This document shows positions 1 through 12,280 of a DNA stretch of 27,251 nt, piece after piece. The stretch's first letter is position 1. Each line of letters starts with the position of its first letter. The position numbers and the translations under genes were made by a program. The notes below the pieces were generated by a model. The model saw only the letters and a list, made by a program, of their open reading frames with translations. It did not search any database and was not told the origin of the DNA. Origin of the DNA: a virus; IMG/VR virus record IMGVR_UViG_3300044616_001468, positions 1 to 27,251 of that record; one strand, 5' to 3'.

Positions 1-377
1 AAGGCCACGGTATTTCCAGTGCGAGAGACATTAATGGTGCCAATATTCCCATCATTGTCGATTGTTCCGTATTCGCTGACATTTACATTTGTACCGTCAA
101 CGAGAATTGTTAGTTCGGTTGCATAGAACTTGTTGTCCCCTGCAGTGGTCTTTGATATTGAAACAATATACTTGACCATACGCCAAACTGTAGCGTCAAA
201 GTTATCAACAACAGTTACGTTCTCAATACCAGTGATTGTATTTTCATTGTTACCAGCAGAACCCAAATCTGTTGCTTGGGCTGATGCGGTGTCAATTAAA
301 TCTTCATAATTTTCTTGAGTAGGTCTATCTCCTGTTTGAAATAGAGTCTTAACTGATGGAATTGATACTTTAGCCAT
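1..377 (-). CDS. Virion-associated protein, 3'-truncated by window edge
   Basis: The reading frame opens at ATG 377 and runs off the left edge without a stop, giving about 125 residues of the N-terminal part. It begins MAKVSIPSVKTLFQTGDRPT and continues as a polar, Asn/Thr/Gly/Asp-rich, beta-prone sequence with no signal peptide, membrane segment or catalytic motif. It is the most distal gene of the minus-strand late block seen here, after other small virion-like genes, so a tail or fibre component is the likeliest role. This is an inference from context, as I do not recognise the family. TGA-TATAAT (plus 384-392) lies exactly 6 nt before the ATG with no Shine-Dalgarno, so the mRNA is probably leaderless. 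Confidence 0.75.
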   Translation of the reverse strand, partial: MAKVSIPSVKTLFQTGDRPTQENYEDLIDTASAQATDLGSAGNNENTITGIENVTVVDNFDATVWRMVKYIVSISKTTAGDNKFYATELTILVDGTNVNVSEYGTIDNDGNIGTINVSRTGNTVA

Positions 378-383
378 ATCGAT

Positions 384-392
384 ATTATATCA
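384..392 (-). promoter_or_regulatory. Extended -10 leaderless promoter
   Basis: Read on the minus strand this is TGA-TATAAT, followed by 6 nt and then the ATG of the gene ending at the window edge. A start site 7 nt after the -10 would coincide with the A of the start codon. No -35 consensus is obvious, which fits the TGn extended -10 class. Confidence 0.6.
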
Positions 393-409
393 CCTGTTTA
401 ATAAGACTA

Positions 410-634
410 TTAGAGGATGTAGTTGCTATATCCAATAACCTGTAGTGGAATTGCTGGGGTATTGCCCAAACCAATAGCCACAATTTGAATGGCTGAAAAC
501 TTAACTCTAAAAGGAAGTATGTCTGTGATTACGGTGTTTCTTGTTATTTCTTCTACTTGAACTACAGGATAATCAATAGAAAAAATTTTTTTGGTTTTAC
601 CATTAAGTTCATCAAGTATTAATGCCGTGGCCAT
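410..634 (-). CDS. Small late protein, unknown function
   Basis: This 74-residue protein is mixed alpha/beta with no recognised motif. Its ATG overlaps the stop of the upstream gene (TAATG arrangement at 634-636), so translation is probably coupled. It has no promoter of its own and no clear Shine-Dalgarno. Lying between two virion-like genes, it is most simply a small tail or virion accessory protein, but that rests on position only. Confidence 0.65.
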   Translation of the reverse strand: MATALILDELNGKTKKIFSIDYPVVQVEEITRNTVITDILPFRVKFSAIQIVAIGLGNTPAIPLQVIGYSNYIL

Positions 635-1050
635 TAATCTGTTACATCTTCAAGGATAACCATGCTACCCTGGCAAACTGTCCAGACTCTTGTTGGGTCG
701 CTAACCTGAATATCAAAGATGTCTCCTGTCTGCAAGACATTGGATTCTTCTGCTGTAAGCCAAACTGTAAACTCTCCAACAAGGTCATCTTCATCTGCAA
801 CTGGATGCAAAGCCATTATTGTAGTTGCATTATCAGTGATGACTCCTTTGTCTGATGCAAGGGTTGGTCTTTTAATCTTCATGGCAATGTCCCACTCAGA
901 TCCAACACCCTTTAAAATTAACGGGACCTTTGCATCATCTGTAACATAAACCTTAAACCCAGAAGTATCTCCACGAACTACAGTCCAGACAACAGTTGGA
1001 GGCGGATTGCCTACATTGTATAATGATTGAGATCCTCTTAAAGTTGCCAT
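634..1050 (-). CDS. Virion/baseplate adaptor-like protein (VRGDTS family)
   Basis: This 138-residue protein carries the segment W-T-V-V-R-G-D-T-S-G-F-K-V (about residues 22-34), then a beta-rich body. The same W-x-I/V-V-R-G-D-T-S pattern occurs in the 10708-11088 product, and a weaker form (Y-K-G-D-T-F-E-F) in the 9107-9862 product, so the three look like paralogues. Similar GDT-containing N-terminal modules are found in phage baseplate/fibre adaptor proteins of the BppU type. That assignment is from memory of the pattern, not a search. The gene is probably leaderless (TGA-TATAAT 6 nt before ATG) and its TAA overlaps the next ATG. Confidence 0.7.
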   Translation of the reverse strand: MATLRGSQSLYNVGNPPPTVVWTVVRGDTSGFKVYVTDDAKVPLILKGVGSEWDIAMKIKRPTLASDKGVITDNATTIMALHPVADEDDLVGEFTVWLTAEESNVLQTGDIFDIQVSDPTRVWTVCQGSMVILEDVTD

Positions 1051-1056
1051 AATGTT

Positions 1057-1065
1057 ATTATATCA
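1057..1065 (-). promoter_or_regulatory. Extended -10 leaderless promoter
   Basis: On the minus strand it reads TGA-TATAAT, 6 nt, ATG of the gene ending at 1050. The TGA of the extended -10 is also the stop codon of the upstream gene, so stop and promoter are fused. Confidence 0.6.
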
Positions 1066-1629
1066 CGACAAACCGTCCTTGAGTGCACCCCAAGTACCGT
1101 TTCCTTTTGTTTGAACTATAATCATTCCACCAAGTGATTTAATTGCTTGAACTGCAACCACTCCAACATATCTTGCTGGGCCAGTTGATGGACGACCACT
1201 TACCAAGGCTCCGTTTTGATCTACATAAATTTTTGTTCCAGAAGTACCTAAATCTGTTGTGTTCATTTGTATAATTCCAGAAACAACAACAACTCCGTTT
1301 GTAGAAGGCAGTGTGTCCGATTGCATTAATCCAAGAATTGGGACATCTGGGTTATGAGTAGGACTTGATGGGTTGTATAATTCTACAGTTGGAATTGCTT
1401 TTCCTTCATAAGTCGTTACCCCCGAAATAAATACTGGCTTTCCTGTTAAAATAGAAATAGATGAACTTACATTTCTTACGGGAGATGAAACACTTGTCAT
1501 TCCTAAAGATGGCAGTATATTATTTAAAGCATCAACCAGTACTTTAAAGTCTCCGTGTACATTAACAGGATCTGACGCAATAGGGTACGTCATAGTAGGA
1601 TAATTAGATGCTGAGGATGTCTGTGGCAT
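1063..1629 (-). CDS. Probable virion/tail surface protein
   Basis: This 188-residue protein is rich in Ser, Thr, Pro, Gly and Val, without signal peptide, membrane segment or catalytic motif. The middle and C-terminal part has the alternating hydrophobic pattern of beta-sandwich phage decoration or fibre-tip domains, with short repeats such as GVVVVSGII and YVGVVAV. I do not recognise the family. It is the first gene of the leftmost late transcript and is divergent from the lytic transglycosylase-like gene. TGG-TATAAT lies 7 nt upstream of its ATG, again predicting a leaderless mRNA. Confidence 0.65.
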   Translation of the reverse strand: MPQTSSASNYPTMTYPIASDPVNVHGDFKVLVDALNNILPSLGMTSVSSPVRNVSSSISILTGKPVFISGVTTYEGKAIPTVELYNPSSPTHNPDVPILGLMQSDTLPSTNGVVVVSGIIQMNTTDLGTSGTKIYVDQNGALVSGRPSTGPARYVGVVAVQAIKSLGGMIIVQTKGNGTWGALKDGLS

Positions 1630-1636
1630 AATCTTT

Positions 1637-1645
1637 ATTATACCA
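1637..1645 (-). promoter_or_regulatory. Extended -10 promoter, near-leaderless
   Basis: Minus strand TGG-TATAAT, 7 nt before the ATG at 1629. It is back to back with the plus-strand promoter at 1656-1685; the two -10 boxes are less than 40 bp apart. Confidence 0.55.
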
Positions 1646-1655
1646 CCCTCTAAAG

Positions 1656-1685
1656 TTGACTTTTGATAAATTTTTGTGTTATACT
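1656..1685 (+). promoter_or_regulatory. Promoter for lytic transglycosylase-like gene
   Basis: TTGACT (1656-1661), 18 bp, TATACT (1680-1685). The predicted start site near 1692 is the first base of an inverted repeat (TAACACCT 1692-1699, loop ACCA, AGGTGTTA 1704-1711), so the transcript would begin with a stem-loop. Confidence 0.65.
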
Positions 1686-1691
1686 AGGTAG

Positions 1692-1711
1692 TAACACCTA
1701 CCAAGGTGTTA
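1692..1711 (+). repeat. 5'-terminal mRNA stem-loop / operator palindrome
   Basis: An 8-bp inverted repeat with a 4-base loop begins at the predicted transcription start. It could protect the 5' end of the mRNA or be a DNA operator. Its arms resemble those of the hairpin at 11113-11155 (TAAYACCT...AGGTRTTA), with a matching C-G to T-A change in both arms. Confidence 0.55.
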
Positions 1712-1732
1712 TTGTTTTCTAAGGAGGAAACT

Positions 1733-2296
1733 ATGATTAAATTTATCGAAAGAAACAAAGAGATCATTAGCACACTCAGTATCGTAGCATTAGTAACTGT
1801 TTTGTCGAACGGAGCCAATGCTGATTCGGGTCTTGATACTAAAAACAACTTGAGCATAGAACAGGCTCAGACATCGGAAACCGCCTCGAAAGAGGTTTTT
1901 TTGGTTTCTAAAGCAAAAAAACTAGAGAGTTTTGAGAACAAGGTTTCTCTGACTGATTTAGAACTAAAGGAACTGCTTTCGCTAGTAGGATTCAAGGGTA
2001 AAGACCTTGTAGTTGCTTGGGCAGTTGCTAAAAAGGAGTCTAATGGGCGACCACTGGCTTTTAATGGCAACCACAAGACTGGTGATTCATCTTATGGAAT
2101 GTTCCAAATCAATATGATTGATACCCTTGGTCCTGATCGTAGGACTAAGTTTGATCTTGACTCTAATGCCGAACTCTTCAACCCCGTCAAGAATGCAGAG
2201 ATTGCATACTACATGACAAATGGTGGAGAAGATTGGTCTTCTTGGAAGGGCATTACTCCAAAGACCAGAATGTGGATGAATAAATTTCCTAAATAA
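1733..2296 (+). CDS. Secreted lytic transglycosylase-like (SLT fold) cell-wall hydrolase
   Basis: ATG 1733 is chosen because a full AAGGAGG lies 5 nt upstream; an earlier in-frame GTG (1706) lies in the 5' hairpin. The 187-residue product has a signal peptide (K/R-rich start, hydrophobic core about 11-24, A-N-A cleavage near 30), a charged linker, then an SLT/lysozyme-like domain. K-K-E-S-N-G has the likely catalytic Glu at about 102, followed by S-S-Y-G-M-F-Q-I-N (119-127) and a C-terminal N-P-V-K-N-A-E-I-A-Y motif typical of goose-lysozyme/SLT folds. It would cleave peptidoglycan glycan strands outside the membrane, for entry or release. It is the only plus-strand gene in the late block and forms an isolated unit with its own promoter and terminator. 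Confidence 0.8.
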   Translation: MIKFIERNKEIISTLSIVALVTVLSNGANADSGLDTKNNLSIEQAQTSETASKEVFLVSKAKKLESFENKVSLTDLELKELLSLVGFKGKDLVVAWAVAKKESNGRPLAFNGNHKTGDSSYGMFQINMIDTLGPDRRTKFDLDSNAELFNPVKNAEIAYYMTNGGEDWSSWKGITPKTRMWMNKFPK

Positions 2297-2309
2297 TCTA
2301 TAAAATAAT

Positions 2310-2345
2310 ATACCCCCTTGGAGAAATCCTTGGGGGTATTTTATT
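2310..2345. terminator. Convergent rho-independent terminator
   Basis: ATACCCCC (2310-2317) pairs with GGGGGTAT, with an inner GGA-GAAA-TCC stem capped by a GNRA-type tetraloop and a T-rich tail on the plus strand. It lies between two convergent genes ending at 2296 and 2344 and can serve both. Confidence 0.75.
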
Positions 2346-3144
2346 ATCTAAAATTAACTTCTGACTTAACCCCATCTGAGAAAGTGTAAGAAGGGAACCA
2401 GCCAAGAAGATCTCTGTTATCTATTTCTGATAGAACTGTTAGGTCTGGCAAATTTAAAACGGTATAAGTAATAGTAACACCATTAGCCTTATACTCGTTT
2501 ACCAGATCAATCATAGTAAACTGGTTTCCAGTAAAAATATCTGTAAGCAAAAAGTCGTTATCCTTAAGATACTCAATAGATAGTACATTGGCTTTTGCTA
2601 TATCTAAAATATGGACATAGTCTCTTGTTGAAGAAACGCTATTAATGTTTATATTTGGATTTTTACTAATTATTGAAAATATGTTTCCACCTTGCTCATC
2701 CTTTATTTTGTCAGATTTTCCAACAATGTTAAAATATCTTAAAATAACAAGTTTTTTACATAAAATTTTTAATATTTTTTCTTCTAAAAGTTTTGATTTG
2801 GCATATGGGTTGTATGGATTATATATTGCTGCAGAGGATGCAAATATAACTGGTATATTTAAAACCTTAGAAACTAAAGCAACAGACAAGGTAGATCCTA
2901 TATTGTTTAAATAATAAAGAATAGGGTTTTTTACAGACTCTGTAATTGATTTTTTAGCAGACAGGTGAATTATTGCTTTTGGTTTTTTTAAAGACAAACA
3001 AAATAGTTTAAATATGTTTCTTGTGTCATTGTTATTTTTTTTATCAAACTCTATAACGTTATATCCATTTTTTATTAAAAGTTCTTTTGTTGCTGATCCA
3101 ACATAACCAAATGATCCAGTCAAAACTACGCTAGCAGTTTTCAA
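2344..3144 (-). CDS. NAD-dependent sugar epimerase/dehydratase (GalE-like SDR)
   Basis: This 266-residue extended-SDR protein has the nucleotide-binding glycine motif G-S-F-G-Y-V-G (10-16), S-S-A-A-I-Y (103-108), the catalytic Y-A-K-S-K (Tyr114, Lys118), R-Y-F-N-I-V-G (136-142) and R-D-Y-V-H-I-L-D (174-181), all hallmarks of UDP-glucose 4-epimerase relatives. At 266 residues it is shorter than typical GalE (about 330). It probably makes or modifies the nucleotide sugar used by the neighbouring glycosyltransferase, in the cytoplasm; substrate unknown. The start is TTG at 3144, overlapping the end of the glycosyltransferase gene by 14 bp. It is the last gene of the modification cassette. It is very rich in Lys, Ile and Asn with AT-rich codons, more so than the virion genes, suggesting separate acquisition. 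Confidence 0.85.
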   Translation of the reverse strand: MKTASVVLTGSFGYVGSATKELLIKNGYNVIEFDKKNNNDTRNIFKLFCLSLKKPKAIIHLSAKKSITESVKNPILYYLNNIGSTLSVALVSKVLNIPVIFASSAAIYNPYNPYAKSKLLEEKILKILCKKLVILRYFNIVGKSDKIKDEQGGNIFSIISKNPNININSVSSTRDYVHILDIAKANVLSIEYLKDNDFLLTDIFTGNQFTMIDLVNEYKANGVTITYTVLNLPDLTVLSEIDNRDLLGWFPSYTFSDGVKSEVNFR

Positions 3145-4048
3145 CTATTTCACCATTTATAAAATCAAGCCCAGCAAATGTTCCATATTCTAGAAGAGTT
3201 CTTTCATTTCCAAGCAACATATCTCCAACTGTTCCTTCTGTTAAAGTTTTATAGATTAATTGTTTAGATACTAAATCTAAACGGTTAAATTCATCAGGGT
3301 AGTCTGTCCAAAGAATCTTTCTCTTATTTATTTCACCTGCAATGTTGTGATTATAGTAAAGATGATACATATACTGCTCATCAGGAACTAATATGTCATA
3401 CCCATGCGTGTAGGCCCTTGCTGCCAACCATATTTCTTCTCCGTAAAATGCAATGTCTGTGTTGAAAGGTAAAAATCCTTTAACAGTAAATATTGATCCT
3501 CCAGATACTGACTTTACAAATCTATTTCCATCGAGGATCGGCATTGCTGTTTGTTGTGGAATTCTTGTTAGCCTAAACTGATCTGGCTTTTCATGAAATG
3601 AGATATTAGATAAGTGGCCAGGTGGTAGAAAATCTTTTTCTACAAACTTAGCGGTTGCAGATGGATACCAGTAATTTGCTGGGTACATTGTAAGAAGTGG
3701 TTTGTGAATTCCCTGAATTTGATAATTTAAAACCGAGTTTATGGCAACTTCGTCCCAACCACTAATAAATCTAGAATGTGAGTCGCATTGAAGATAATAA
3801 TCTTCGCCATCATAAAATTGATGAGCAAGGGCTCTTCCGATTCCCAAACCAATATTTTCTGGAGCCTTGCTTTCAGCATGCTTAACATTAGGCAAATCAG
3901 GAACATTAATCTCTGATTCATCTACATAAACTGTGTGAACACCAAAATTAATTGTGTGGTTCCCAGATGACTGCTTTATTGCATCTAGAATTGTAGGGGT
4001 TACCTCTAAATCTCTATATGCTGCTATCTGAACAAATATGCTGGCCAT
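3131..4048 (-). CDS. GlcNAc-transferase-like glycosyltransferase (PF11397/GT60-like)
   Basis: This 305-residue GT-A-like enzyme opens with I-F-V-Q-I-A-A-Y-R-D (4-13), has a metal/nucleotide-sugar site Q-C-D-S-H-S-R-F (87-94) followed by G-W-D, a S-G-G segment (182-184), and the acceptor/catalytic region Y-G-E-E-I-W-L-A-A-R-A-Y-T-H-G-Y-D (202-218). This order is what I know from the Pfam GlcNAc family, whose eukaryotic GT60 members add GlcNAc to Ser/Thr or hydroxyproline of polypeptides. In-sequence context supports a protein target: the Thr-tract fibre gene is immediately upstream in the same direction. Its ATG overlaps the radical SAM stop (TAATG) and its end overlaps the epimerase start, so all three are probably co-translated. 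Substrate and acceptor are inferred. Confidence 0.8.
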   Translation of the reverse strand: MASIFVQIAAYRDLEVTPTILDAIKQSSGNHTINFGVHTVYVDESEINVPDLPNVKHAESKAPENIGLGIGRALAHQFYDGEDYYLQCDSHSRFISGWDEVAINSVLNYQIQGIHKPLLTMYPANYWYPSATAKFVEKDFLPPGHLSNISFHEKPDQFRLTRIPQQTAMPILDGNRFVKSVSGGSIFTVKGFLPFNTDIAFYGEEIWLAARAYTHGYDILVPDEQYMYHLYYNHNIAGEINKRKILWTDYPDEFNRLDLVSKQLIYKTLTEGTVGDMLLGNERTLLEYGTFAGLDFINGEIVENC

Positions 4049-5052
4049 TAGTCACCCCAAATCGCATGAACGCATGTTCTGCAGAAGTTTTCAAATGACT
4101 TAACTGTCATTAACTTATGCTCAATGCTCATCCATATATCGCTAATTGGCTTATCGTTTATATTTCCAAATACCGTTTCAAAATCGTAGTCATTACAACA
4201 AATAAAGGTGTCTCCATTAGCAGCAACGTGTAGCCATCCATTTGGTCTGCCACCTACTTCTCTTCCGTTACCACAACCAACTACTCTTTCCTTGCCTTTT
4301 TTCTCTTTGCTCTCAATAGCAGCCTTATTTGTAATAATTTGATGAGTATCTAAGTGACCATTTCTATCTACAAGGTATGGCATTTCGTATACTTGTAGTC
4401 CAGGAAACTTTTCTCTCCAACCATTTGTCATTCTTGCAAGTAATCCAGTTTCAAGATCTATGTCCATTTCTGGAGCATTTTTTAACTGTTGAATCCAACC
4501 ACCATACTCTACAAGAGAATTTTTATTAATACCGTTTACTTGTATTGACATGGCTTTGCTTGTTACCATATCTGGCAACTGCTCTACCGCATATGTCACC
4601 TGCTCTATTAATTTATCAAACATTTTTACGGGTTTTCCTGTTGCTTTTGCCCATTCTTCTGGATCTGATGCAGGAATATTAAAACAAATACCATGAACAA
4701 CATCTTGATATTCTCTAATAAGGTCAGTTCTTGCTTTAGTTAGTGGCGTTCCATTAGTTAACACAATGGTTCTTATCTTGTTTTTTCTTAAAACCTCTAG
4801 CATTTCTGGAAAGTACTTATAAAGAAGAACTTCGTTGTAGTGTGCCGTATATATAAAATCAAAATTATCAGAAACAAACGTGCCTTTACCTGCAACAAGT
4901 TGATTAATAATGCTTTCAAAGGTTTCAATTGGCATATTTGTTCTTTGTGCCAAAGGATTTTCTGCATATCTTACTGGACAAAACCAACAGCCTACATTAC
5001 AAAGACCATTGGGGTCAATTTGTGCCATTGATATTTTGTATTGATATTTCAT
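4048..5052 (-). CDS. Radical SAM/SPASM enzyme
   Basis: This 334-residue protein has the radical SAM signature C-N-V-G-C-W-F-C (Cys18, 22, 25) near its N-terminus, a TIM-barrel-like core, and a C-terminal SPASM-like Cys cluster (V-G-C-G-N, F-I-C-C-N-D, F-C-R-T-C) that would bind auxiliary iron-sulfur clusters. Members act on peptides or small molecules, using 5'-deoxyadenosyl radical chemistry in the cytoplasm. The gene is between a small zinc-ribbon-like protein and the glycosyltransferase, with a 1-nt gap and a TAATG overlap, so it is part of the modification cassette. Its substrate is unknown. It could modify a virion protein, a sugar precursor or a host peptide. Confidence 0.85.
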   Translation of the reverse strand: MKYQYKISMAQIDPNGLCNVGCWFCPVRYAENPLAQRTNMPIETFESIINQLVAGKGTFVSDNFDFIYTAHYNEVLLYKYFPEMLEVLRKNKIRTIVLTNGTPLTKARTDLIREYQDVVHGICFNIPASDPEEWAKATGKPVKMFDKLIEQVTYAVEQLPDMVTSKAMSIQVNGINKNSLVEYGGWIQQLKNAPEMDIDLETGLLARMTNGWREKFPGLQVYEMPYLVDRNGHLDTHQIITNKAAIESKEKKGKERVVGCGNGREVGGRPNGWLHVAANGDTFICCNDYDFETVFGNINDKPISDIWMSIEHKLMTVKSFENFCRTCVHAIWGD

Positions 5053-5053
5053 A

Positions 5054-5284
5054 TTACCACTTACCTATTGGACACTTGGCTGCTTCAAGTTTAGTTTTTA
5101 TAGACATAATGCATCCACACTTTTTGCATTGAGAGGTTAAAGAAATTAACTCTGGGCATGCTCTACATATTGACATTCTTGATGCTGCTAAATCATCGGC
5201 AGCATGTTTTGTCATTGGGTTTAGTAAGTCTAATGGAGTTACTCCATTTTTTTCTTTATATTTTTCCCATGCTGACTTTGACAT
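5054..5284 (-). CDS. Small Cys-rich zinc-ribbon-like protein (DUF6171-like)
   Basis: This 76-residue protein is charged and helical at its N-terminus. Its C-terminal half has C-R-A-C (Cys40, 43), C-K-K-C-G-C (53, 56, 58) and C-P-I-G-K-W (Cys71) as its end. The C-x-x-C...C-x-x-C-G-C...C-P-x-G-K-W pattern is shared by many phage proteins filed as DUF6171, as I recall. It probably binds zinc or an iron-sulfur cluster. A clear AGGGAGAAC Shine-Dalgarno precedes the ATG, and TATAAT (plus 5312-5317) lies about 28 nt upstream, so it looks like the first gene of the modification cassette. It may be an accessory or carrier protein for the radical SAM enzyme (inference). Confidence 0.75.
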   Translation of the reverse strand: MSKSAWEKYKEKNGVTPLDLLNPMTKHAADDLAASRMSICRACPELISLTSQCKKCGCIMSIKTKLEAAKCPIGKW

Positions 5285-5311
5285 TTGTTCTCCCTAAATA
5301 GTTGTTATTCT

Positions 5312-5317
5312 ATTATA
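5312..5317 (-). promoter_or_regulatory. -10 of the modification-cassette promoter
   Basis: Minus-strand TATAAT with TG immediately before it, about 28 nt upstream of the ATG at 5284. Unlike most late promoters here it leaves room for a leader containing AGGGAGAAC. Confidence 0.45.
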
Positions 5318-5324
5318 CACGATA

Positions 5325-5741
5325 TCACTCAGTGTATTGTGGCTGTGTTGGAGCCCAAGGAATTAAATCTGCCATGTCTCTATTCGTTATAGTAAATTTT
5401 TCTCCGTCAAAAGTGGCATTTGGAGATTGAACATATCTTCCATATGGGTAGTCTCTTAAATCAAGAACTAATGGATTGCTTAATAAGACGCTTCCAAAAT
5501 ATTCAGAAGTTTGTAATTCATTGATCATTGATCCATCTTTAATAAATCTAACTGTTATCCCGTCATGATTTGGATAACTTTGAGATACATCAATTACTGT
5601 ATTGCTAGACATAAACATTTCTTTATATTCGTTCCATGTTGGTATATCATATATGCATTGTCCATCAATTACCCAAACTAACGGTACTCCATTTATACCG
5701 TCGTTTCCTCTAACAAACTGTATATCTATATCTGTTAACAA
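5325..5741 (-). CDS. Small virion-like protein following the mucin-like fibre
   Basis: The start is taken as TTG 5741: AGGAGG (plus 5748-5753) lies exactly 6 nt upstream and the codon sits across the stop of the fibre gene. An upstream in-frame GTG at 5762 would place the Shine-Dalgarno inside the coding region. The product of 138 residues contains a W-V-I-D-G-Q-C-I-Y-D-I-P-T-W-N-E-Y segment and a beta-rich body. No family is recognised. Tight coupling to the 916-residue fibre gene suggests a fibre chaperone, tip or adaptor, but nothing in the sequence proves it. Confidence 0.65.
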   Translation of the reverse strand: MLTDIDIQFVRGNDGINGVPLVWVIDGQCIYDIPTWNEYKEMFMSSNTVIDVSQSYPNHDGITVRFIKDGSMINELQTSEYFGSVLLSNPLVLDLRDYPYGRYVQSPNATFDGEKFTITNRDMADLIPWAPTQPQYTE

Positions 5742-8485
5742 TTGTATCCTCCTCCGAAACACCTATCAAATGGTGGGTTTGAACAACTTGCTCCGCTTCC
5801 ACAGCCAGTACTACATCCAGTAGAAGCACAACATCCAATAGATACGTCAAACGATGTACAGGTTACCCCAGATGTTGGTGCTGCAGTTGTGGTTGCTGCA
5901 GTTGTGGCTGCAGTTGTGGTTGCTGCAGTTGTGGCTGCGGTTGTAGTTGCTGCGGTCGTAGTAGTTGTTGGTGCTGCAGTTGTAGTTGCTGCAGTCGTTG
6001 TTGTGGTTGGTGCTGGGGTCGTAGTTGCTGCAGTCGTTGTTGTGGTTGGTGCTGGGGTCGTAGTTGCTGCAGTCGTAGTTGTGGTTGGTGCTGGGGTCGT
6101 AGTTGCTGCAGTCGTAGTTGTTGCAGGAGCAAAATATGGGAAGAATGGAGGTGCTGCAGTTGTAGTTGTACAATTTGGCAATGCTGGTGCAGACCCTTGT
6201 TGATAAGTAATATTGCTTACGCCATCATAATTTCCACTTATCCAATTAGCAAGTGATGATTGAGTTGTAAAGGAAGATCCTCCGTCTGATATTGCAACTC
6301 CGTTTGTACAGAATGAAGCAAACCATCCAGTTGCTGCTGTCGTAGTTGTTGTAGTTGTTGGTGCTGGGGTCGTAGTAGTTGTTGGTGCTGGCGAAGTTGA
6401 TGCTGCAGTCGTAGTTGCTGCTGTCGTTGTTGTTGTAGTTGTTGGTGCTGCAGTCGTAGTAGTTGTTGCAGTAGTTACTCCACAACTTGCTGGTGAAACA
6501 GAAGGTGTATTTGATGTTCCTGCTGCACAGTTCCATCCTGAACCAATTTCTCCCATAGATGTCATTTCATTAAATATCGCACTACACGTTGTTCCTGCTT
6601 CAAACAGTGGTCCGACAACTGTTCCAGGACTATAACCTGCGCTTACGCTGCCACAATATGTGTACCAGACTCCTGATGTTACTGGTGCTACGGTAGTTGT
6701 AGTTGTTGTTGCTGCGGTCGTGGTTGTAGTTGTTGCTGGTGTTGAAGATGTAGTTCCTGGTGCGACTGTTGTTGTAGTAGTTGTAGTAGGATTACATCCA
6801 GTTGGTGTTGTAGAAACCCCACCCTGTGTAGTATTTCCTATTCCTGGCTCATCTGCATCACATGCAGCGTTTAGACCTGTTACTGCAGCACTACTGTTAG
6901 CGTAAGTTCCACTGACTCCTGCTCCATTAGTACAGCAAGCATAATAAGTTGTTCCTGTTGGTGCTGGAGTAGTTGTAGTGGTTGTAGTTGTTCCAGCACA
7001 TCCAGTTGGTAGTGCAGGAGCAGATCCTTGCTGGTAAGTAACATTACTTACATTTTCATAATTACCATTTATCCATGCTTCAAGTGCTCCAACGGATGTA
7101 TACTGAGATCCTCCGTCTGTCATTGCAATTCCATTAGAACAGAATGAGGCAAAATATCCACTTGTTGGTGCAGCAGTTGTTGTTGTAGTCGTGGTTGTAC
7201 TTGTAGTGACACCTGAAGGAACAGTGTAACTTATTGTTGAAGAAGCAGATGCTCCTTGTTGATTGTCAGAAGCATAAACAGTTAATGTTAAAGTATAAGT
7301 TGTTCCCTTGTTTGCCATTCCAAGGTATGCGTCAGTATCTGAGTTAGCATTACTTGTATAAGTGCTTCCATTAGCAGTTGAAGGAGACGCAGTTATTTGA
7401 TAAGATGATGCATTTGAATAGTTAAATATTGTCCAGATAGCCTGTTGTGTTTGTGTATCGGTACATCCTCCTACGTCAGGGTTTTCACACTGAGCAGAGA
7501 AAGAACTAATTGTTGGTGTAATTACTGGCGCTACAGTCGTAGTTGTAGTTGTTGTTGCTGCAGTCGTGGTTGTAGTTGTTGCTGGTGTTGAAGATGTAGT
7601 TCCTGGTGCGACTGTTGTTGTAGTAGTTGTAGTGGCTGGTGCTGGTGTTGAAGATGTAGTTCCTGGCGCTGCTGTAGTAGTTGTAGTGGCTGGCGCTGCT
7701 GTAGTAGTTGTAGTGGTTGTCGGTGCTGCGGTTGTAGTAGTTGCTACAGCAACACCTTCATATATATCTCCATACAAAACCCAACTATCTGTTGCAACTT
7801 TTATTAAAGTTCCCTTGCTATATCTTCCATCTAAGAATAATTGTGAATTTTTACTATTAATAGTCACACCAGATGCTGGAACAAAAGTTGTTTTTTCTGA
7901 ACCAAATTCAATAAAATGATATTGATATCCAACTGGAATTGCAACTGAAGAATTTAGCGGGATAGTTAAATTCATTGGTGAAGATGTTGACAAAAGAATA
8001 GTCTTGCTAACATCTGCCAACTCTAATGTAAAACTAGAATTTTTTGTAATAACTGTTGAGGTATTTGAAATGCTTGGCTCAAGATCAAATTGGAATGTTC
8101 CTGAGTTCCAGTCAATTCCAACTCCTGCAAGCGTTGACTGATTTACGGTAGAGTTATCTATTCCAGAATCAACATATGCTTTTGTTGCAAGAAGGGCTGT
8201 GTTTGCTATTCCGTGAACATTTATTGTGGCTGCATTGTGTGCTGCGATGGCTGCATCTCTATTTACTATTTCTGCTGCGTCGGCATCTACAAGGTTTTGA
8301 AGGTGTTTTGCTATTGAAGGGGATACAAGGTTTGATGGTGTTGTATTTGCGCCATCATAAGTATAGGATCCATAGTGATATAGTCTGAGCGCTGCCTGAA
8401 TATCGGCTGCATCTCCAAGACCTGGGATTTTGGCATTAAATAGTCCAGTACCATTAACGGTATTGTCAATATTTTCTGCTGCCAC
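5735..8485 (-). CDS. Mucin-like Thr-rich tail fibre protein
   Basis: This 916-residue protein starts at GTG 8485, with AAGGGTGAT as Shine-Dalgarno. Residues 1-245 are a fibre-like N-terminal part, including A-H-N-A-A-T-I-N-V-H-G-I-A-N-T (82-96), a repeat familiar from phage minor tail proteins. From about residue 249 on, long tracts of Thr with Ala/Pro (TTTTTAAP, TTTPAP, TTTVAPGTTSSTPA) alternate with compact Cys-containing domains. One, with F-A-S-F-C-x-N-G and Y-Q-Q-G-S-A-P-A-L-P, occurs twice. The last 45 residues are Cys-rich. The Thr/Pro/Ala tracts resemble O-glycosylated mucin stalks, extended and protease-resistant when glycosylated. With the glycosyltransferase cassette just downstream, a glycosylated host-binding fibre is the best inference. 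The DNA is highly repetitive and prone to recombination or misassembly. Confidence 0.85.
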   Translation of the reverse strand: MAAENIDNTVNGTGLFNAKIPGLGDAADIQAALRLYHYGSYTYDGANTTPSNLVSPSIAKHLQNLVDADAAEIVNRDAAIAAHNAATINVHGIANTALLATKAYVDSGIDNSTVNQSTLAGVGIDWNSGTFQFDLEPSISNTSTVITKNSSFTLELADVSKTILLSTSSPMNLTIPLNSSVAIPVGYQYHFIEFGSEKTTFVPASGVTINSKNSQLFLDGRYSKGTLIKVATDSWVLYGDIYEGVAVATTTTAAPTTTTTTTAAPATTTTTAAPGTTSSTPAPATTTTTTTVAPGTTSSTPATTTTTTAATTTTTTTVAPVITPTISSFSAQCENPDVGGCTDTQTQQAIWTIFNYSNASSYQITASPSTANGSTYTSNANSDTDAYLGMANKGTTYTLTLTVYASDNQQGASASSTISYTVPSGVTTSTTTTTTTTAAPTSGYFASFCSNGIAMTDGGSQYTSVGALEAWINGNYENVSNVTYQQGSAPALPTGCAGTTTTTTTTPAPTGTTYYACCTNGAGVSGTYANSSAAVTGLNAACDADEPGIGNTTQGGVSTTPTGCNPTTTTTTTVAPGTTSSTPATTTTTTAATTTTTTVAPVTSGVWYTYCGSVSAGYSPGTVVGPLFEAGTTCSAIFNEMTSMGEIGSGWNCAAGTSNTPSVSPASCGVTTATTTTTAAPTTTTTTTAATTTAASTSPAPTTTTTPAPTTTTTTTAATGWFASFCTNGVAISDGGSSFTTQSSLANWISGNYDGVSNITYQQGSAPALPNCTTTTAAPPFFPYFAPATTTTAATTTPAPTTTTTAATTTPAPTTTTTAATTTPAPTTTTTAATTTAAPTTTTTAATTTAATTAATTTAATTAATTTAAPTSGVTCTSFDVSIGCCASTGCSTGCGSGASCSNPPFDRCFGGGYNC
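5877..6125. repeat. Thr/Ala/Pro-coding tandem repeats, array 1
   Basis: Tandem units of about 39 bp (13 codons) recur three times between about 5985 and 6115 with few mismatches, each holding GTTGCTGCAGTCG and GGTTGGTGCTGGGGTC. They are flanked by degenerate shorter copies. On the coding (minus) strand they spell TTTTTAA and TTTPAP blocks. The repeats also create false valine-rich frames on the plus strand. Confidence 0.8.
6340..6475. repeat. Thr/Ala/Pro-coding repeats, array 2
   Basis: A second Thr-tract linker in the fibre gene, between the second F-A-S-F-C domain and the W-Y-T-Y-C domain. It contains TTTTTPAP and SPAP variants. Confidence 0.7.
6690..6790. repeat. Thr-tract repeat, array 3 (long direct repeat copy A)
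   Basis: About 75 bp here (from about 6712) is nearly identical to a segment starting near 7557. Both encode the TTTVAPGTTSSTPATTTTTTAA linker in pieces. The near identity points to recent duplication or gene conversion inside the fibre gene. Confidence 0.75.
7530..7745. repeat. Thr-tract repeat, array 4 (long direct repeat copy B)
   Basis: This is the longest linker nearest the N-terminal domain. It includes copy B of the 75-bp repeat (about 7557-7632) and further GTTSSTPAP units. It links residue ~249 to the first Cys-containing domain. Confidence 0.75.
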
Positions 8486-8503
8486 TATAGATCACCCTTT
8501 TTC

Positions 8504-8512
8504 ATTATACCA
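8504..8512 (-). promoter_or_regulatory. Extended -10 promoter of the fibre gene
   Basis: Minus-strand TGG-TATAAT. Here the GTG start lies 18 nt downstream, leaving a leader of about 12 nt that holds AAGGGTGAT. It is the same promoter type as its neighbours but with a short leader. Confidence 0.5.
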
Positions 8513-9104
8513 CCGTAATAAATAGGTGGACAAGTTTAGGCCCAGTCATATCTGACCAGACTCCATCTACATATTCTACTCCCTTTATTTCAAGTGGTAG
8601 TGCTAAGAATCCCTGTGTTGTTATTAAGTCTTTTACTATAAGGTTTGTTGCTAGTGGTCCAGATGTTTCTGACGAAGATATTGAGTACTGAATGCTGAAT
8701 CTGGAAGAACTCACAGTCCCATCTGATAAAGCATAGATATCTGTAACATTGATTGGTGGAATTGTTATCTTTCCATTTACTGGACTAAAAGGACCTTTTA
8801 TATCTGAGTAAAAATCTGTTTTTAAACTAACAAGAGGAGTCCACTGAGGAGTACCTGATGGAGTGGAGATATATTGAAAAACTGTTCTGTATGTATCTGA
8901 ACTTGGACTATAATCAACAGCAAGGTCTAATGCTTGAACATCTTGAGCAATTAAATTTGCTACACTAGCGTTTCTTGGATCTCCCTGAACGCCAACAATA
9001 ATACTTCCACGGTCACCTGGTGGTCCAAAATCTAAATCAAGTTTTATTTCTGCTGGCCCACCAAAGACCGCCATATCATCATTTGATAATAGTATGTCTG
9101 CCAT
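8505..9104 (-). CDS. Tail/fibre structural protein
   Basis: This 199-residue beta-rich protein has a short collagen-like G-P-P-G-D-R-G stretch near residues 27-33 in an otherwise Ser/Asp/Val-rich sequence. It has no signal peptide or enzyme motif. It lies between the GDT-motif protein and the mucin-like fibre. Its ATG is 2 nt after the upstream TAA, so it is probably translationally coupled. A fibre shaft or adaptor role is inferred from neighbours. Confidence 0.65.
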   Translation of the reverse strand: MADILLSNDDMAVFGGPAEIKLDLDFGPPGDRGSIIVGVQGDPRNASVANLIAQDVQALDLAVDYSPSSDTYRTVFQYISTPSGTPQWTPLVSLKTDFYSDIKGPFSPVNGKITIPPINVTDIYALSDGTVSSSRFSIQYSISSSETSGPLATNLIVKDLITTQGFLALPLEIKGVEYVDGVWSDMTGPKLVHLFITVV

Positions 9105-9106
9105 TA

Positions 9107-9862
9107 TTAAGCACCTGTTGCAGGGAATACTGCAGTAACTATTCCTGAGTCAATTGGATTTGTAACAAGTGTTGCGTGTTCTACTGTAAACTTATTTGCT
9201 GGAGTTCCAATAAGAGAATATGGCTGCTTTGCACTTACTGTAATTTTTGCAAGATACACTGTTGAAGCAACAAAATTTCCAACCAAAGGAGTTGTTCCAT
9301 TAGATTCAAACCAGGAGACTGTTCCTGAATGTTCTGCTGTTTCAAATACTGATGAAACTGGTGTTGCTCCTTTAACTGGTTTTGTGACTCCTCTAATATT
9401 ATAGTTTGAAAGTGTTGGACGGTTATTTGGATTTGCTCCAGTAACTTGGTCTGTAATAGTTATCTTGCCTGTCATCAGCGTGTATACTTTTTCATAAAAA
9501 GGATTTTCGTAATTTCCTTCTGCTGCCCTTACCTCAACGTCATAGACATACTCTGTTCCAGCATTTAGTTCTACTGAGTCAGACGGTCTAATTGCACACT
9601 GAACAAATGTTCCGTCATCTGATATTTTAGCAAAACATTTAATTGGGGTTCCTGCAGATCCACGAACGGTAGATATTGTAAACTGAGCGCTATCATATGG
9701 GGCTGAAACGTCCAAAGCATAGTCTGGACTATTTGCAAAATTTGTTGGCACTGTAAAAGCACCTAAAAGGTGAGATGTTCCGTCGTCCTTTTTCGGGTAG
9801 ATACGAAACTCAAAGGTATCACCCTTATAATAATTAAAGTCATAGGTCGCTGGAAATGCCAT
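9107..9862 (-). CDS. Baseplate/fibre adaptor-like protein with GDT motif
   Basis: This 251-residue protein begins with T-Y-D-F-N-Y-Y-K-G-D-T-F-E-F-R-I-Y, a charged strand-turn-strand motif like the V-R-G-D-T-S segments of the 634-1050 and 10708-11088 products. The rest is Ala/Thr/Val-rich with immunoglobulin-like spacing. The C-terminal half resembles a second beta-sandwich. It probably joins fibres to the tail. It is predicted to be leaderless (TGG-TATAAT 6 nt before the ATG). Confidence 0.65.
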   Translation of the reverse strand: MAFPATYDFNYYKGDTFEFRIYPKKDDGTSHLLGAFTVPTNFANSPDYALDVSAPYDSAQFTISTVRGSAGTPIKCFAKISDDGTFVQCAIRPSDSVELNAGTEYVYDVEVRAAEGNYENPFYEKVYTLMTGKITITDQVTGANPNNRPTLSNYNIRGVTKPVKGATPVSSVFETAEHSGTVSWFESNGTTPLVGNFVASTVYLAKITVSAKQPYSLIGTPANKFTVEHATLVTNPIDSGIVTAVFPATGA

Positions 9863-9868
9863 GGTTTT

Positions 9869-9877
9869 ATTATACCA
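9869..9877 (-). promoter_or_regulatory. Extended -10 leaderless promoter
   Basis: Minus-strand TGG-TATAAT, 6 nt, ATG at 9862. The stop codon (TAA) of the collagen-like gene lies inside the TATAAT hexamer. Confidence 0.6.
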
Positions 9878-10601
9878 CGCTGACGTAGACAGAATTGAGG
9901 ATTACGGATGAGTCAAAGTCTGTTCTGATTTGAGGCACTGCTCCATTGCCCCACATGGCTTGATCTTCAATAAATATTTGCTGTGTTGCTGATAAGTTAT
10001 AAACGTTTTGATATTTAAAAGACCCAACCAACTGGACAAACTCTTTGTCTTTGCTTGCAAAATATGTCCTTAGCCAAACTTCTGTATTAGCGGTATATGT
10101 CGTTAGTTCAAAGTTATATGTTACAAATACTTGGGATCCTTCTTTGATACCATGAAAGTTTAGGGCTCGCTGGTGGCTGTTCCAAAGACTGGTACATCCT
10201 TTTGGAAGGTATGTCTCATTCTGAGTTTTTTCTTTTGTGTCTAATGACAATGTCACCCACCCATCATCGCCTTGAGAGATTCCAAGTTTTATTGGTTTGT
10301 CAATAGTGTTTTCATATGAGGCCCAACCAGCCTGTTGTCCTGAAGAAGATAAAGAACTTAACCCGTTTTGTCCAGTTGCTCCCTTTTCTCCCTTTTGCCC
10401 CTTTTGTCCTTCTGGACCTATAGGACCTGGCAATCCATCTTTACCATCTCTTCCTGCTGGTCCTTGAGGACCTTGTGGTCCAGGAACTGGTAGAAATGAA
10501 AGAGTATTTTCTTGATATGTAGAGATTTGACTTTGCTCTACTTGAGCAGCATAAGAAGATTTTTTTGCACCAGGGAAGTCCATAGATTTAGAAGCAGCCA
10601 T
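9870..10601 (-). CDS. Collagen-like tail fibre protein
   Basis: This 243-residue protein has a short N-terminal region, then 13 consecutive Gly-X-Y triplets (about residues 41-80, with GPQ, GRD, GLP, GEK triplets) that would form a collagen-like triple helix. A C-terminal domain of about 150 residues with Trp- and Tyr-rich beta strands could be a trimerising or receptor-binding head. Collagen-like repeats are common in phage tail fibres. GATAAT preceded by TGA lies 6 nt before the ATG, predicting a leaderless mRNA. Confidence 0.8.
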   Translation of the reverse strand: MAASKSMDFPGAKKSSYAAQVEQSQISTYQENTLSFLPVPGPQGPQGPAGRDGKDGLPGPIGPEGQKGQKGEKGATGQNGLSSLSSSGQQAGWASYENTIDKPIKLGISQGDDGWVTLSLDTKEKTQNETYLPKGCTSLWNSHQRALNFHGIKEGSQVFVTYNFELTTYTANTEVWLRTYFASKDKEFVQLVGSFKYQNVYNLSATQQIFIEDQAMWGNGAVPQIRTDFDSSVILNSVYVSVV

Positions 10602-10607
10602 AAGGAC

Positions 10608-10616
10608 ATTATCTCA
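10608..10616 (-). promoter_or_regulatory. Extended -10 leaderless promoter
   Basis: Minus-strand TGA-GATAAT, 6 nt, ATG at 10601. It is one mismatch from the TGn-TATAAT used by the neighbours. Confidence 0.5.
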
Positions 10617-10621
10617 CGGGA

Positions 10622-10708
10622 TTATTTATTTACTTTAAAAGTTTTGTTTTTAATTCTAACCACTGATGGTAACTCAGGTCTAGGGGTTGTAATTTTTACT
10701 ACTGCCAT
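10622..10708 (-). CDS. 28-residue small late protein
   Basis: ATG 10708 overlaps the stop of the upstream gene (TAATG) and the frame ends in TAA 20 nt before the next start, filling the gap exactly. The product begins M-A-V-V-K-I-T-T-P-R-P and ends K-T-F-K-V-N-K, basic and without a membrane segment. Its reality rests on the coupled start and the absence of any other use for the gap. Function unknown. Confidence 0.5.
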   Translation of the reverse strand: MAVVKITTPRPELPSVVRIKNKTFKVNK

Positions 10709-11088
10709 TATAGGCTACCTGTAACATCGCCAATTACTGAGATGGTTCCAATCAGAGGAGTCCAGATTGTGTCTGAGTCAATTGTAACCTGTAGATCAAA
10801 GGTTAGTTCTGTTACTATTGTTTTATAGCCAGTACCCCATAGTTCTGTAATTGATGCTGGTGCCATAATGTCTACATATCCTGCTCCAGGTGTAATTTCC
10901 AGGGAATCAAGAGCATCAGATTGAGGATCATAAGAAGTAGCCTCATACGTCCAATCAGAGGTATCAAAATATGTGGTTTCATCATCATCTAAAAATTCAA
11001 CACGAAGTGGGGAGGTGTCGCCTCTAACAATTTGCCATTTAATTCTGGCTGGATCTGCTCCAAAAACCTCTGGTCCATGCATAGTCAT
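10708..11088 (-). CDS. Virion/baseplate adaptor-like protein (VRGDTS family)
   Basis: This 126-residue acidic beta-rich protein contains I-K-W-Q-I-V-R-G-D-T-S-P-L-R-V-E-F (about 17-33). It matches the 634-1050 product over that motif, so the two are paralogues flanking the late block. It probably forms an N-terminal attachment module for fibres or baseplate. It is predicted to be leaderless from TGG-TATAAT, 6 nt before its ATG. A terminator-like hairpin lies directly upstream of that promoter. Confidence 0.7.
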   Translation of the reverse strand: MTMHGPEVFGADPARIKWQIVRGDTSPLRVEFLDDDETTYFDTSDWTYEATSYDPQSDALDSLEITPGAGYVDIMAPASITELWGTGYKTIVTELTFDLQVTIDSDTIWTPLIGTISVIGDVTGSL

Positions 11089-11094
11089 AATGTG

Positions 11095-11103
11095 ATTATA
11101 CCA
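11095..11103 (-). promoter_or_regulatory. Extended -10 leaderless promoter
   Basis: Minus-strand TGG-TATAAT, 6 nt, ATG at 11088. It lies just after the T-run of the hairpin at 11105-11155. Confidence 0.6.
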
Positions 11104-11160
11104 TAAAAAAGACTAATACCTTGATTGGTGGGTATAGGACAAACCAAGGTATTAGCCAGT
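11104..11160 (-). ncRNA. Candidate short hairpin RNA (promoter directly followed by terminator)
   Basis: A minus-strand TGG-TATAAT (plus 11167-11175) predicts a start near 11160. Five nt later begins an inverted repeat, CTAATACCTTG paired with CAAGGTATTAG (11145-11155 with 11113-11123, 11 bp, 21-nt loop), ending in a run of six T. The predicted transcript is about 57 nt and almost wholly hairpin, with no open frame. It could be a small RNA, an early-pausing/antitermination element, or just an insulating terminator with a chance -10. Confidence 0.4.
11105..11155 (-). terminator. Rho-independent terminator-like hairpin
   Basis: An 11-bp perfect stem (11113-11123 with 11145-11155) is followed on the minus strand by C-T-T-T-T-T-T. 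It separates the GT32/holin unit from the tail genes. Confidence 0.6.
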
Positions 11161-11166
11161 AATAAA

Positions 11167-11175
11167 ATTATACCA
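11167..11175 (-). promoter_or_regulatory. Extended -10 promoter of the candidate hairpin RNA
   Basis: Minus-strand TGG-TATAAT with no start codon nearby. It is the same box as at the leaderless late genes but placed in front of a hairpin. Confidence 0.4.
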
Positions 11176-11296
11176 TAATAGACAAAATGGACATTGATAT
11201 TTAAAGTTATCAAATTGTTATAATAAAGAATGTCCGATTTGATACCATAAGTCTGTTTTAGCCAGGATTGCGATAGTGTATACTTTAAATATATAA

Positions 11297-11320
11297 GAAA
11301 AAAGAACTATCTTTATAGTT
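11297..11320 (-). terminator. Rho-independent terminator after GT32-like gene
   Basis: On the minus strand AACTAT-AAAG-ATAGTT forms a 6-bp stem with a 4-nt loop followed by C-T-T-T-T-T-T, 14 nt after the stop at 11334. A near copy of one arm lies just upstream and could form an alternative hairpin. Confidence 0.65.
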
Positions 11321-11333
11321 TTAAAAACTATCT

Positions 11334-12005
11334 TTATATATAGTATATAGGCCAATTCATATTAATGCAAAGTGTGTGATAATTAATTTTTTCTTTGTTA
11401 AATACAACATCTAAATTACTATTAAACAAGGTTTTGTATTCAGCAGCGTGACTATAATAATCATTATTAAAAAATATTAATTCCTTGTTTTTCATTGCTA
11501 CTTCTGATACAATTCTATTTTCTAAAGATGCAAAAGGTAAATTTGGAATATCTTTTATGTCTGTATTTCTATATTCTAAAATAATTTTATCTATCATTTC
11601 TTTAATAATTTTATTATTTTTTACTGCGCCAAAATTTGAAGATCCTATACCTGAATGTTGAAATCCCTCTGGAGAAAATACAAGGTCTTTACCGTCATAA
11701 ATATTTAATAATGTTTCATCTATACCTTTAACACATACAGCATCCATATCGGAATAAAATCCTCCGTGATTATAAATTGTAACTAATCTCCAAATATCTG
11801 ATTGGTGTGTTTTAGCAGACTCTAAATAATAACTATGTAAAAATTCATCATATTCTTTTACTGCCAAAGATCTTTCTTCTGCTCCGACATATCTATATTC
11901 CCACCCTGGATTTAGATTTTTCCAAGTGTTTGTAATGTCTTTTTGAAATGGTAACAGATCGTTATATTTGTTTTCGTGAGTTTGCCAAATAATCTTTGGT
12001 ATCAT
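11334..12005 (-). CDS. Glycosyltransferase with DXD motif (GT32/PF04488-like)
   Basis: This 223-residue enzyme has the typical start M-I-P-K-I-I-W-Q-T (1-9) and S-D-I-W-R-L-V-T-I-Y-N-H-G-G-F-Y-S-D-M-D (69-88), whose D-M-D is the DXD metal/sugar-nucleotide motif of the OCH1-like, capsular and toxin-type families. It probably transfers a hexose to a glycan or protein in the cytoplasm. It follows a holin-like gene with a 5-nt gap and ends in a terminator. Codon use is very AT-rich, like the epimerase at 2344-3144. It may extend sugars laid down by the PF11397-like enzyme, or modify host surface glycans. That link is inference. Confidence 0.85.
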   Translation of the reverse strand: MIPKIIWQTHENKYNDLLPFQKDITNTWKNLNPGWEYRYVGAEERSLAVKEYDEFLHSYYLESAKTHQSDIWRLVTIYNHGGFYSDMDAVCVKGIDETLLNIYDGKDLVFSPEGFQHSGIGSSNFGAVKNNKIIKEMIDKIILEYRNTDIKDIPNLPFASLENRIVSEVAMKNKELIFFNNDYYSHAAEYKTLFNSNLDVVFNKEKINYHTLCINMNWPIYYI

Positions 12006-12010
12006 TTTAA

Positions 12011-12280
12011 TTACTTCTTGTCATTTTTAGCAATATGTTCAAGCAAAATTCTATACAATTCGTCTAGTTTTCTTTCTTGGCGATCTCGTGATTCTTCGGA
12101 ATTAATTTTTTGTTCCTGAACAGCCAACTCTAATCTTGACATTTGGTCTTTCATCGATGATCCAGAATTGGGCTTAAGTTCGCTGAGATAATGTTTTACC
12201 ATCCACTTGATTGCAAAGGCGATTGATGATACAATTGTAAGTATCGCTACGATTAAGGAAGCCCAGTCTTGTATTGTCAT
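12011..12280 (-). CDS. Holin-like small membrane protein
   Basis: This 89-residue protein has one hydrophobic segment (W-A-S-L-I-V-A-I-L-T-I-V-S-S-I-A-F-A-I, about 6-24), a basic stop-transfer K-W-M-V-K-H, and a charged C-terminal helix with coiled-coil character ending N-D-K-K. This resembles single-TM phage holins or membrane-anchored accessory proteins. The frame stays open upstream to about 12475, but only ATG 12280 has a promoter near it and avoids the divergent gene. No endolysin is adjacent; the wall hydrolase lies 10 kb away, so the holin call is tentative. Confidence 0.6.
   Translation of the reverse strand: MTIQDWASLIVAILTIVSSIAFAIKWMVKHYLSELKPNSGSSMKDQMSRLELAVQEQKINSEESRDRQERKLDELYRILLEHIAKNDKK

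Follow-up and report, generated by a model that had tools for sequence, protein, structure and literature searches.

The fibre locus

The stretch of DNA analysed here, referred to as the window, is the 27,251-base IMG/VR virus record IMGVR_UViG_3300044616_001468, in which the gene of a threonine-rich, tail-fibre-type protein lies upstream of a cassette containing a putative glycosyltransferase of the Pfam family PF11397; the co-occurrence of these two elements in related sequences suggests that the phages concerned decorate their own fibres with sugars in the manner of mucins. A 118 kb contig that holds the window's genes at 100% identity encodes portal, head-protease and head proteins, and the source is therefore a tailed phage; a megablast search of window positions 1-15000 against isolated phages gave no match. 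The genes in question are transcribed from the minus strand in the order collagen-like protein, two further proteins, fibre, hypothetical protein, DUF6171-like protein, radical SAM/SPASM protein, PF11397 enzyme and epimerase, and the overlaps of the listed open reading frames (ORFs), namely that of the fibre with the next gene and that of the enzyme with the epimerase, make the arrangement operon-like. In related phages the gene set is variable in the interval separating the fibre from a conserved convergent gene (1706-2296, plus strand; lysozyme-like by eye, with no PHROG match), which closes it.

The fibre (5735-8485, minus strand; 916 residues), the proposed substrate, comprises an N-terminal fibre module followed by four poly-Thr/AAP stalks between which Cys-containing domains are seen directly, in agreement with the stalks and Cys domains of the original prediction. 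Part of the N-terminal region is found again in a further ORF of this phage, which has matches to PHROG tail-fibre families, the correspondence having been made by contig coordinates. Threonine makes up 26% of the protein and 54-60% of each of the four linkers, which are all read from the minus strand and lie at 7523-7756 (stalk 1, 42 Thr in 78 residues), 6668-6790 (stalk 2, 23 in 41), 6326-6481 (stalk 3, 31 in 52) and 5861-6130 (stalk 4, 51 in 90), so that the dense Thr/Ser-Pro tracts characteristic of a mucin-type O-glycoprotein are present. A small Cys-containing domain can be recognized by eye twice between the stalks (~6180-6330 and 7000-7160), with the pattern WFASFC/YFASFC ... YQQGSAPALP.

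The threonine tracts are selected at the protein level. In the fibre, Thr runs 4-8 residues long number 21, whereas 1000 shuffled sequences of equal composition had 3.1 on average and never more than 11, and within these runs adjacent Thr codons are identical in 22 of 118 cases (0.19 vs 0.315 expected from codon usage), all four codons being employed; this mixture of synonymous codons indicates a feature of the protein and not a DNA microsatellite. Of 40 loci for which the codons were tabulated, 35 likewise have fewer identical neighbouring Thr codons than expected (loci of the comparison are given by L numbers; the exceptions are L011, L220, L238, L240 and L252).

The PF11397 enzyme and its predicted fold

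The transferase gene (3131-4048, minus strand) encodes 305 residues. The prediction that its product is PF11397-like was borne out by a search with the Pfam GlcNAc (N-acetylglucosamine) profile PF11397, which gave E=1.7e-31 and 110.4 bits, five times the cut-off of 21; the same cut-off is passed by proteins of L069, L052, L242 and L062. The family covers the GT60 polypeptide alpha-GlcNAc-transferases. In an alignment of 65 viral sequences D89 and H91 (a D-x-H motif), E204-E205 and H229 are invariant, and an AlphaFold model built with these 65 sequences reached a pLDDT (predicted local distance difference test) of 95.0 and a pTM (predicted template-modelling score) of 0.93, superseding an earlier model made from 17 sequences (pLDDT 64.6).

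When the 998 top Foldseek chains were realigned to this model, the best 29 among the entries listed were polypeptide N-acetylgalactosamine (GalNAc) transferases (Z 18.6-22.0 over 247-268 residues), the best match being 6nqt_F (Z 22.0, root-mean-square deviation 3.1, 259 residues) and the next structural class being chondroitin polymerase (Z 16.2); Foldseek's own ranking likewise puts the polypeptide GalNAc-transferases first. The predicted model thus displays the catalytic GT-A fold of GT27. Members of GT27 bind Mn through a DxH motif plus a later His and carry a C-terminal lectin domain. The phage enzyme resembles them in its predicted fold (Z as high as 22.0, 259 residues) and in having the DxH and a later invariant His. 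It differs from them in consisting of the catalytic part only, insofar as its 305 residues align to residues 135-440 of GalNAc-T2 and to nothing past these, leaving no ricin-type lectin domain, and in that the 65-sequence profile found no Protein Data Bank (PDB) chain with an E value of 10 or less; the link with the GalNAc-transferases is therefore one of fold similarity and not of family membership. Since the confidently modelled GT-A domain spans nearly all of the protein, no room is left for a membrane anchor.

A tblastn search with the enzyme matched no isolated phage; searches started from divergent relatives found Xanthomonas phage XacN1 and two Stenotrophomonas phages (~25% identity), the neighbourhood in XacN1 not being a fibre locus by annotation.

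Co-occurrence of stalk and enzyme

The association between fibre and transferase, which the original prediction had put forward from a single locus, was examined in two samples, the first of which was gathered through the enzyme. Ninety-one unique viral PF11397 proteins were divided into 72 core members (E<1e-60 with a profile designated A1) and 19 distant ones, and an ORF within 5 kb of the enzyme was counted as Thr-dense if a stretch of 30 residues contained 13 or more Thr. Such an ORF is found upstream of 48 of the 53 core enzymes having enough sequence and downstream of none of 43, three of these 43 downstream flanks having one or more Thr runs of lower density; after clustering of the enzymes at 70% identity the counts become 20/22 and 0/19. 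Among the five upstream misses, L063 and L220 have a Thr tract further off (7 kb), while L032 and L243 have several Thr runs of lower density (11 in 30). In loci L220-L262, 42 of 43 of which show none of four backbone genes lying upstream in the window (that of the collagen-like protein included), a Thr-dense ORF is nonetheless present in 33/43 and a DUF6171-like gene in 37/43, several of the contigs ending close to the enzyme. The pairing is kept among enzymes ~41-54% identical to that of the window, in contigs otherwise little alike.

Among the 429 Thr runs of those of the 53 core loci that have them, a proline stands at position +3 in 63%, and A-A-P follows 160 runs. Favoured GT27 acceptors have Pro at +3, a preference which the phage Thr runs would match.

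The second sample was gathered independently of the enzyme, through the backbone gene upstream of the fibre (8505-9104, minus strand) and its second family. Loci were ranked by similarity and kept as the best 80 of 204 and the best 80 of 122 (in another collection scan the best 80 of 417 loci were kept); the 191 backbone-gene loci were reduced to 118 by removal of duplicates, to 104 by the presence of the closing gene and to 99 in the samples. The enzyme was scored with the narrow A1 profile (a broader profile, trained partly on distant PF11397 proteins, gave 14 "discordant" intervals) and a poly-Thr stalk was taken to be three or more Thr runs, stalk classes and cut-offs having been fixed after the sequences had been inspected. 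With these definitions 13 intervals have both poly-Thr stalk and core enzyme, none has the stalk alone, five have the enzyme without poly-Thr and 81 have neither. Other cut-offs give, for intervals with vs without core enzyme, 13/4 (at least one Thr run), 13/1 (at least two) and 13/0 (at least three).

Mapped onto the backbone-protein tree, the stalk undergoes 8 changes and the enzyme 12. Seven independent pairs can be drawn on supported branches, of which on average 6.4 differ in the same direction, 0 in the opposite one and 0.6 not at all (median p 0.016, range 0.016-0.063). With the test reversed, 9 pairs give 6.0, 0 and 3.0, respectively (median p 0.031). The exchange can be followed between close relatives: the backbone protein of L121 is 97-98% identical to those of L017 and L023, yet its stalk is of the Thr-Pro type and its cassette a different one; L036 is 94% identical in the backbone to L004, the window's twin, and within 94-98% to L037, yet differs from them in both stalk type and enzyme.

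Proposed mechanism and alternative explanations

Taken together, the linkage, the co-variation along the tree and the predicted mucin-initiating fold favour the premise that the cassette glycosylates the neighbouring fibre, the threonines of T(4-8)-A-A-P-type stalks serving as acceptors; we assign to it a probability of about 0.8. According to this mechanism the soluble GT-A enzyme would move a sugar from a UDP-sugar onto stalk threonines in the cytoplasm of the infected cell, the epimerase would provide or shift the donor sugar, the DUF6171-like protein would probably assist the enzyme on the fibre, and transfer would take place onto the newly made fibre, before or during assembly. The outcome, between the binding domains of the fibre, would be a mucin-like stalk that is stiffened and resists proteases; its dense glycans might extend and stiffen it and shield it from proteases or from unwanted sticking.

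A number of observations weigh against this mechanism or restrict its reach. The tie to the GalNAc-transferases is by predicted fold only, and the radical SAM gene is assigned no role in the scheme. L237 has a core enzyme without a clear Thr tract, the sole such case among the five upstream misses, and the five core enzymes of the 99 intervals that lack poly-Thr accompany Thr-Pro stalks, so that the exact acceptor may vary; in L136 and L137, on the other hand, two short Thr runs are found with no enzyme within reach. The two relatives that a scan of bacterial genomes gave (28% identity) are without a Thr-rich neighbour up to 8 kb on each side, and distant PF11397 genes without a Thr- or Pro-rich neighbour occur in L052, L053, L094, L100, L115, L169, L190 and L349. 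Homologues regularly devoid of a Thr-rich protein, which the original prediction had named as the outcome that would speak against it, are hence not seen in the core clade but do exist among the distant members, and the coupling holds for the close clade and not for the whole Pfam family. Finally, the record of L121 carries a distant PF11397 gene elsewhere, so that this phage is without the core enzyme in the interval but not without PF11397 altogether; the 12 kb around that gene contain no Thr- or Pro-rich ORF.

As to the disposition of the distant genes, they are found on the opposite (minus) strand in L052-L057, L094 and L100 (~5.7-7.0 kb; 1.4-2.3 kb in L054), and in the four loci examined (L052, L053, L094 and L100) no Thr- or Pro-rich partner stands beside them.

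An alternative is that the enzymes act on the receptor side, changing host surface glycans so as to exclude superinfection or to aid release, their joint movement with the fibre reflecting a common fit to one host receptor. The joint exchange of fibre and cassette between similar backbones is what would be expected if both match a host. Nevertheless, this explanation is unlikely, in that the enzyme tracks the chemistry of the stalk repeat, the predicted fold is that of polypeptide-acting transferases, and the GT-A domain, which fills nearly all of the 305 residues, leaves no space for a membrane anchor; furthermore, the prolyl-hydroxylase-like genes of alternative cassettes (see below) suggest a protein substrate.

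It could also be that the fibre module and a nearby gene are linked by inheritance with no functional coupling, a premise that is in keeping with the adjacency and joint movement of the genes and with the small number (7) of supported pairs in the tree test. We consider this improbable in view of the pairing being retained at ~41-54% enzyme identity in dissimilar contigs and of close backbones switching both traits at once. Hardly more credible is the possibility that the Thr tracts are unmodified low-complexity linkers, the enzyme acting on another virion protein such as the collagen-like one (9870-10601; 13 Gly-X-Y triplets by eye). This protein and other fibre-type proteins do share the gene run, and the collagen-like gene is present in the fetched sequence of 17 of the 18 intervals with a core enzyme; it is also present, however, in 70 of the 81 intervals without one, poly-Thr stalks never occur without the core enzyme in the 99 intervals, and in L220-L262 a Thr-dense ORF is retained in 33/43 where 42/43 lack the collagen-like gene and the three other backbone genes. 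Lastly, a DNA-modification system in which an oxygenase and a transferase together produce modified bases and attach sugars to them, as might be imagined from the PHROG names of the 2-oxoglutarate (2OG) oxygenase genes found here, which mention DNA enzymes, and from phage transferases that are reported to glucosylate DNA (PMC12619734), can be virtually dismissed given the location of the genes with fibres, the polypeptide-enzyme-like fold of the transferase, the best matches of the main oxygenase family (c1) to prolyl 4-hydroxylases and the lack of an oxygenase inside 10 of the 13 poly-Thr cassettes.

Proline-repeat stalks and 2OG oxygenases

Fibre glycosylation by the PF11397 enzyme may represent one case of a wider pattern. 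By stalk, the 99 intervals comprise 13 with poly-Thr, 45 with Pro-repeats (18 Thr-Pro and 27 Val-Thr-Pro or Ala-Pro-Thr) and 41 with neither. The 13 poly-Thr intervals have the core enzyme in 13, a DUF6171-like gene in 13, radical SAM in 10 and any 2OG gene in 3; the 45 Pro-repeat intervals have the core enzyme in 5, a 2OG gene in 44 and a DUF6171-like gene in 44; the corresponding figures for the 41 intervals without such a stalk are 0, 8 and 14. The number of Thr-Pro dipeptides predicts the presence of a 2OG gene with an area under the curve of 0.97, and even L122 and L088, which were classed as having no stalk, hold 63 and 76 Thr-Pro dipeptides plus a 2OG gene. In the tree test of 2OG genes vs Pro stalks no opposed pair was seen, the result not being significant (median p 0.06-0.13).

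Of the 2OG genes in the 45 Pro-repeat intervals, family c1 accounts for 33 and family c3, termed 2OG-like solely from its conserved HxD...H pattern and having no Pfam or PDB match, occurs alone in 11. With the c1 profile, 49 PDB sequences were matched at E<=0.1, the best of which was 3itq (6.9e-9); the names they carry are prolyl hydroxylase, Egl nine, PKHD hydroxylase or predicted protein. The Fe-binding HxD...H residues of c1 (H131, D133 and H184) are invariant in 14 sequences, and its profile is thus similar to solved prolyl hydroxylases. Genes of three families linked through Pfam to GT61 (c6), weakly to O-fucosyltransferases (c7) or to GT8 (c10) are present in 30 of the 45 Pro-repeat and in none of the 13 poly-Thr intervals; when PF11397 and two unnamed transferase-like families are added, the Pro-repeat count rises to 45 of 45.

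A sample of viral contigs at large gathered through c1 (the best 80 of at least 570 loci) was searched for Pro-repeat ORFs, defined as having at least 8 Pro in 30 residues. These lie upstream in 39/45 and downstream in 3/58 loci (38/44 and 3/59 with other hit boundaries), and in 10/15 and 3/21, respectively, after clustering at 50% identity. The sample revealed a third stalk type, consisting of PPFFPPFF-like repeats. Within L293-L348, many loci have proteins with PPFFPPFF, PPHFPPHF or SPPGFFAPP repeats upstream of prolyl-hydroxylase-like genes.

These data lead us to propose, with moderate confidence, that interchangeable cassettes of tailed phages follow a code in which poly-Thr/AAP stalks go with the polypeptide GalNAc-transferase-like enzyme, constituting a phage mucin, while Thr-Pro, Val-Thr-Pro and Pro-Phe stalks are accompanied by oxygenases of prolyl-4-hydroxylase-like type and by other transferases, constituting a phage counterpart of the hydroxyproline-rich extensins. 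Stalk and enzyme set seem to be exchanged as matched modules and, if this is true, a cassette swap would alter the surface chemistry of the fibre. For uncultured phage groups the code would allow the enzyme to be predicted from the stalk repeat and the stalk repeat from the enzyme.

Relation to known glycosylation systems

Mucin-type glycosylation is generally regarded as a eukaryotic trait. A literature search covering few subscription journals found, among the titles listed, no report of a phage system of this kind and, within the same bounds, a single paper on PF11397, concerning a brown alga, and none on DUF6171. If the proposed mechanism is correct, the locus would offer a compact, genetically separable mucin-type system, with substrate and enzyme side by side and possibly usable in bacteria, and would account for low-complexity stalks that annotation leaves unnamed.

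Like the GT60 enzymes TcOGNT-2 of Trypanosoma cruzi, Gnt2 of Dictyostelium and Gnt1 acting on hydroxyproline of Skp1, the phage enzyme matches PF11397 by sequence. A review places the enzyme initiating the mucin glycans of T. cruzi in GT60 (PMC6939170), and another study describes glycosylation by it of the peptide KPPTTTTTTTTKPP with UDP-GlcNAc and Mn2+ (PMC3769586); the acceptor, a run of eight Thr between prolines, resembles the phage TTTTTAAP. Unlike the GT60 enzymes, that of the phage is viral and apparently soluble, adjoins the gene of its proposed substrate and has radical SAM and DUF6171-like partners.

Glycosylation of virion proteins has been described in mycobacteriophages (Freeman et al. 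2023), where the glycans are reported to be carried by the C-terminal ends of the capsid and tail-tube subunits (PMC12619734, PMC12691614). The system proposed here would share with it the decoration by a phage of its own structural proteins and would differ in the site, which would be the Thr-run stalks of a fibre. With respect to the Pro-repeat stalks, a parallel is found in the modification of Skp1, in which, according to the above review, a prolyl hydroxylase acts first and a GT60 enzyme then acts on the hydroxyproline (PMC6939170). Some sister cassettes similarly pair a prolyl-4-hydroxylase-like gene with a PF11397 transferase; unlike Skp1, in which one proline is concerned, the phage stalks are repeat-rich.

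Neighbouring genes

The epimerase (2344-3144, minus strand; 266 residues), the proposed donor supply, matches PF01370 (2.6e-22); against the GalE model TIGR01179 it scores 1.4e-28 and 99.7 bits, below the equivalog cut-off of 262.3 bits, so that the designation "GalE-like" given to it in advance is right and "GalE" proper is not established.

The DUF6171-like gene (5054-5284, minus strand) encodes a small Cys-rich protein, a proposed accessory, with matches to PF19668 (9e-5, under the cut-off) and phrog_13558 (7.5e-17). Its presence in 57 of the 58 stalk-bearing cassettes of the 99-interval sample and the existence, at 7595-8791 of L062 and adjoining a Thr-Pro stalk, of a gene in which a DUF6171-like domain and a PF11397 transferase are naturally fused suggest that it may guide modification enzymes to stalks generally. 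In the isolated cyanophage Synechococcus phage syn9 (L268, gp29 region), a DUF6171-like gene precedes three putative fibre genes, from which a few other genes separate it.

The radical SAM/SPASM protein (4048-5052, minus strand; PF04055 1.2e-9, PF13186 9.8e-9) is encoded in 10 of the 13 poly-Thr cassettes; of the 16 copies found in the 99 intervals, 14 accompany the core enzyme. The 145-residue protein c5 (5325-5762, minus strand), whose listed ORF overlaps the fibre gene at its end, is present in 8 of the 13 poly-Thr cassettes.

Two other genes thought at the outset to extend the pathway are real ORFs of the window, although their participation found no support. The 2OG-Fe(II) oxygenase-like gene (13450-14040; PF13640 23.9 bits, under the 27-bit cut-off) lies on the opposite strand and outside the cassette, and a 2OG gene as part of the poly-Thr cassettes was rejected for most of them, three of 13 having one; the collagen-like protein may be a conceivable target of the window's 2OG gene. 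The GT32-like gene (11334-12005; PF04488 48.2 bits, above the cut-off of 23) was found in four of 32 loci, many of them short, in all cases at 100% identity. A tRNA-Asp (GTC) gene is located at 24080-24154.

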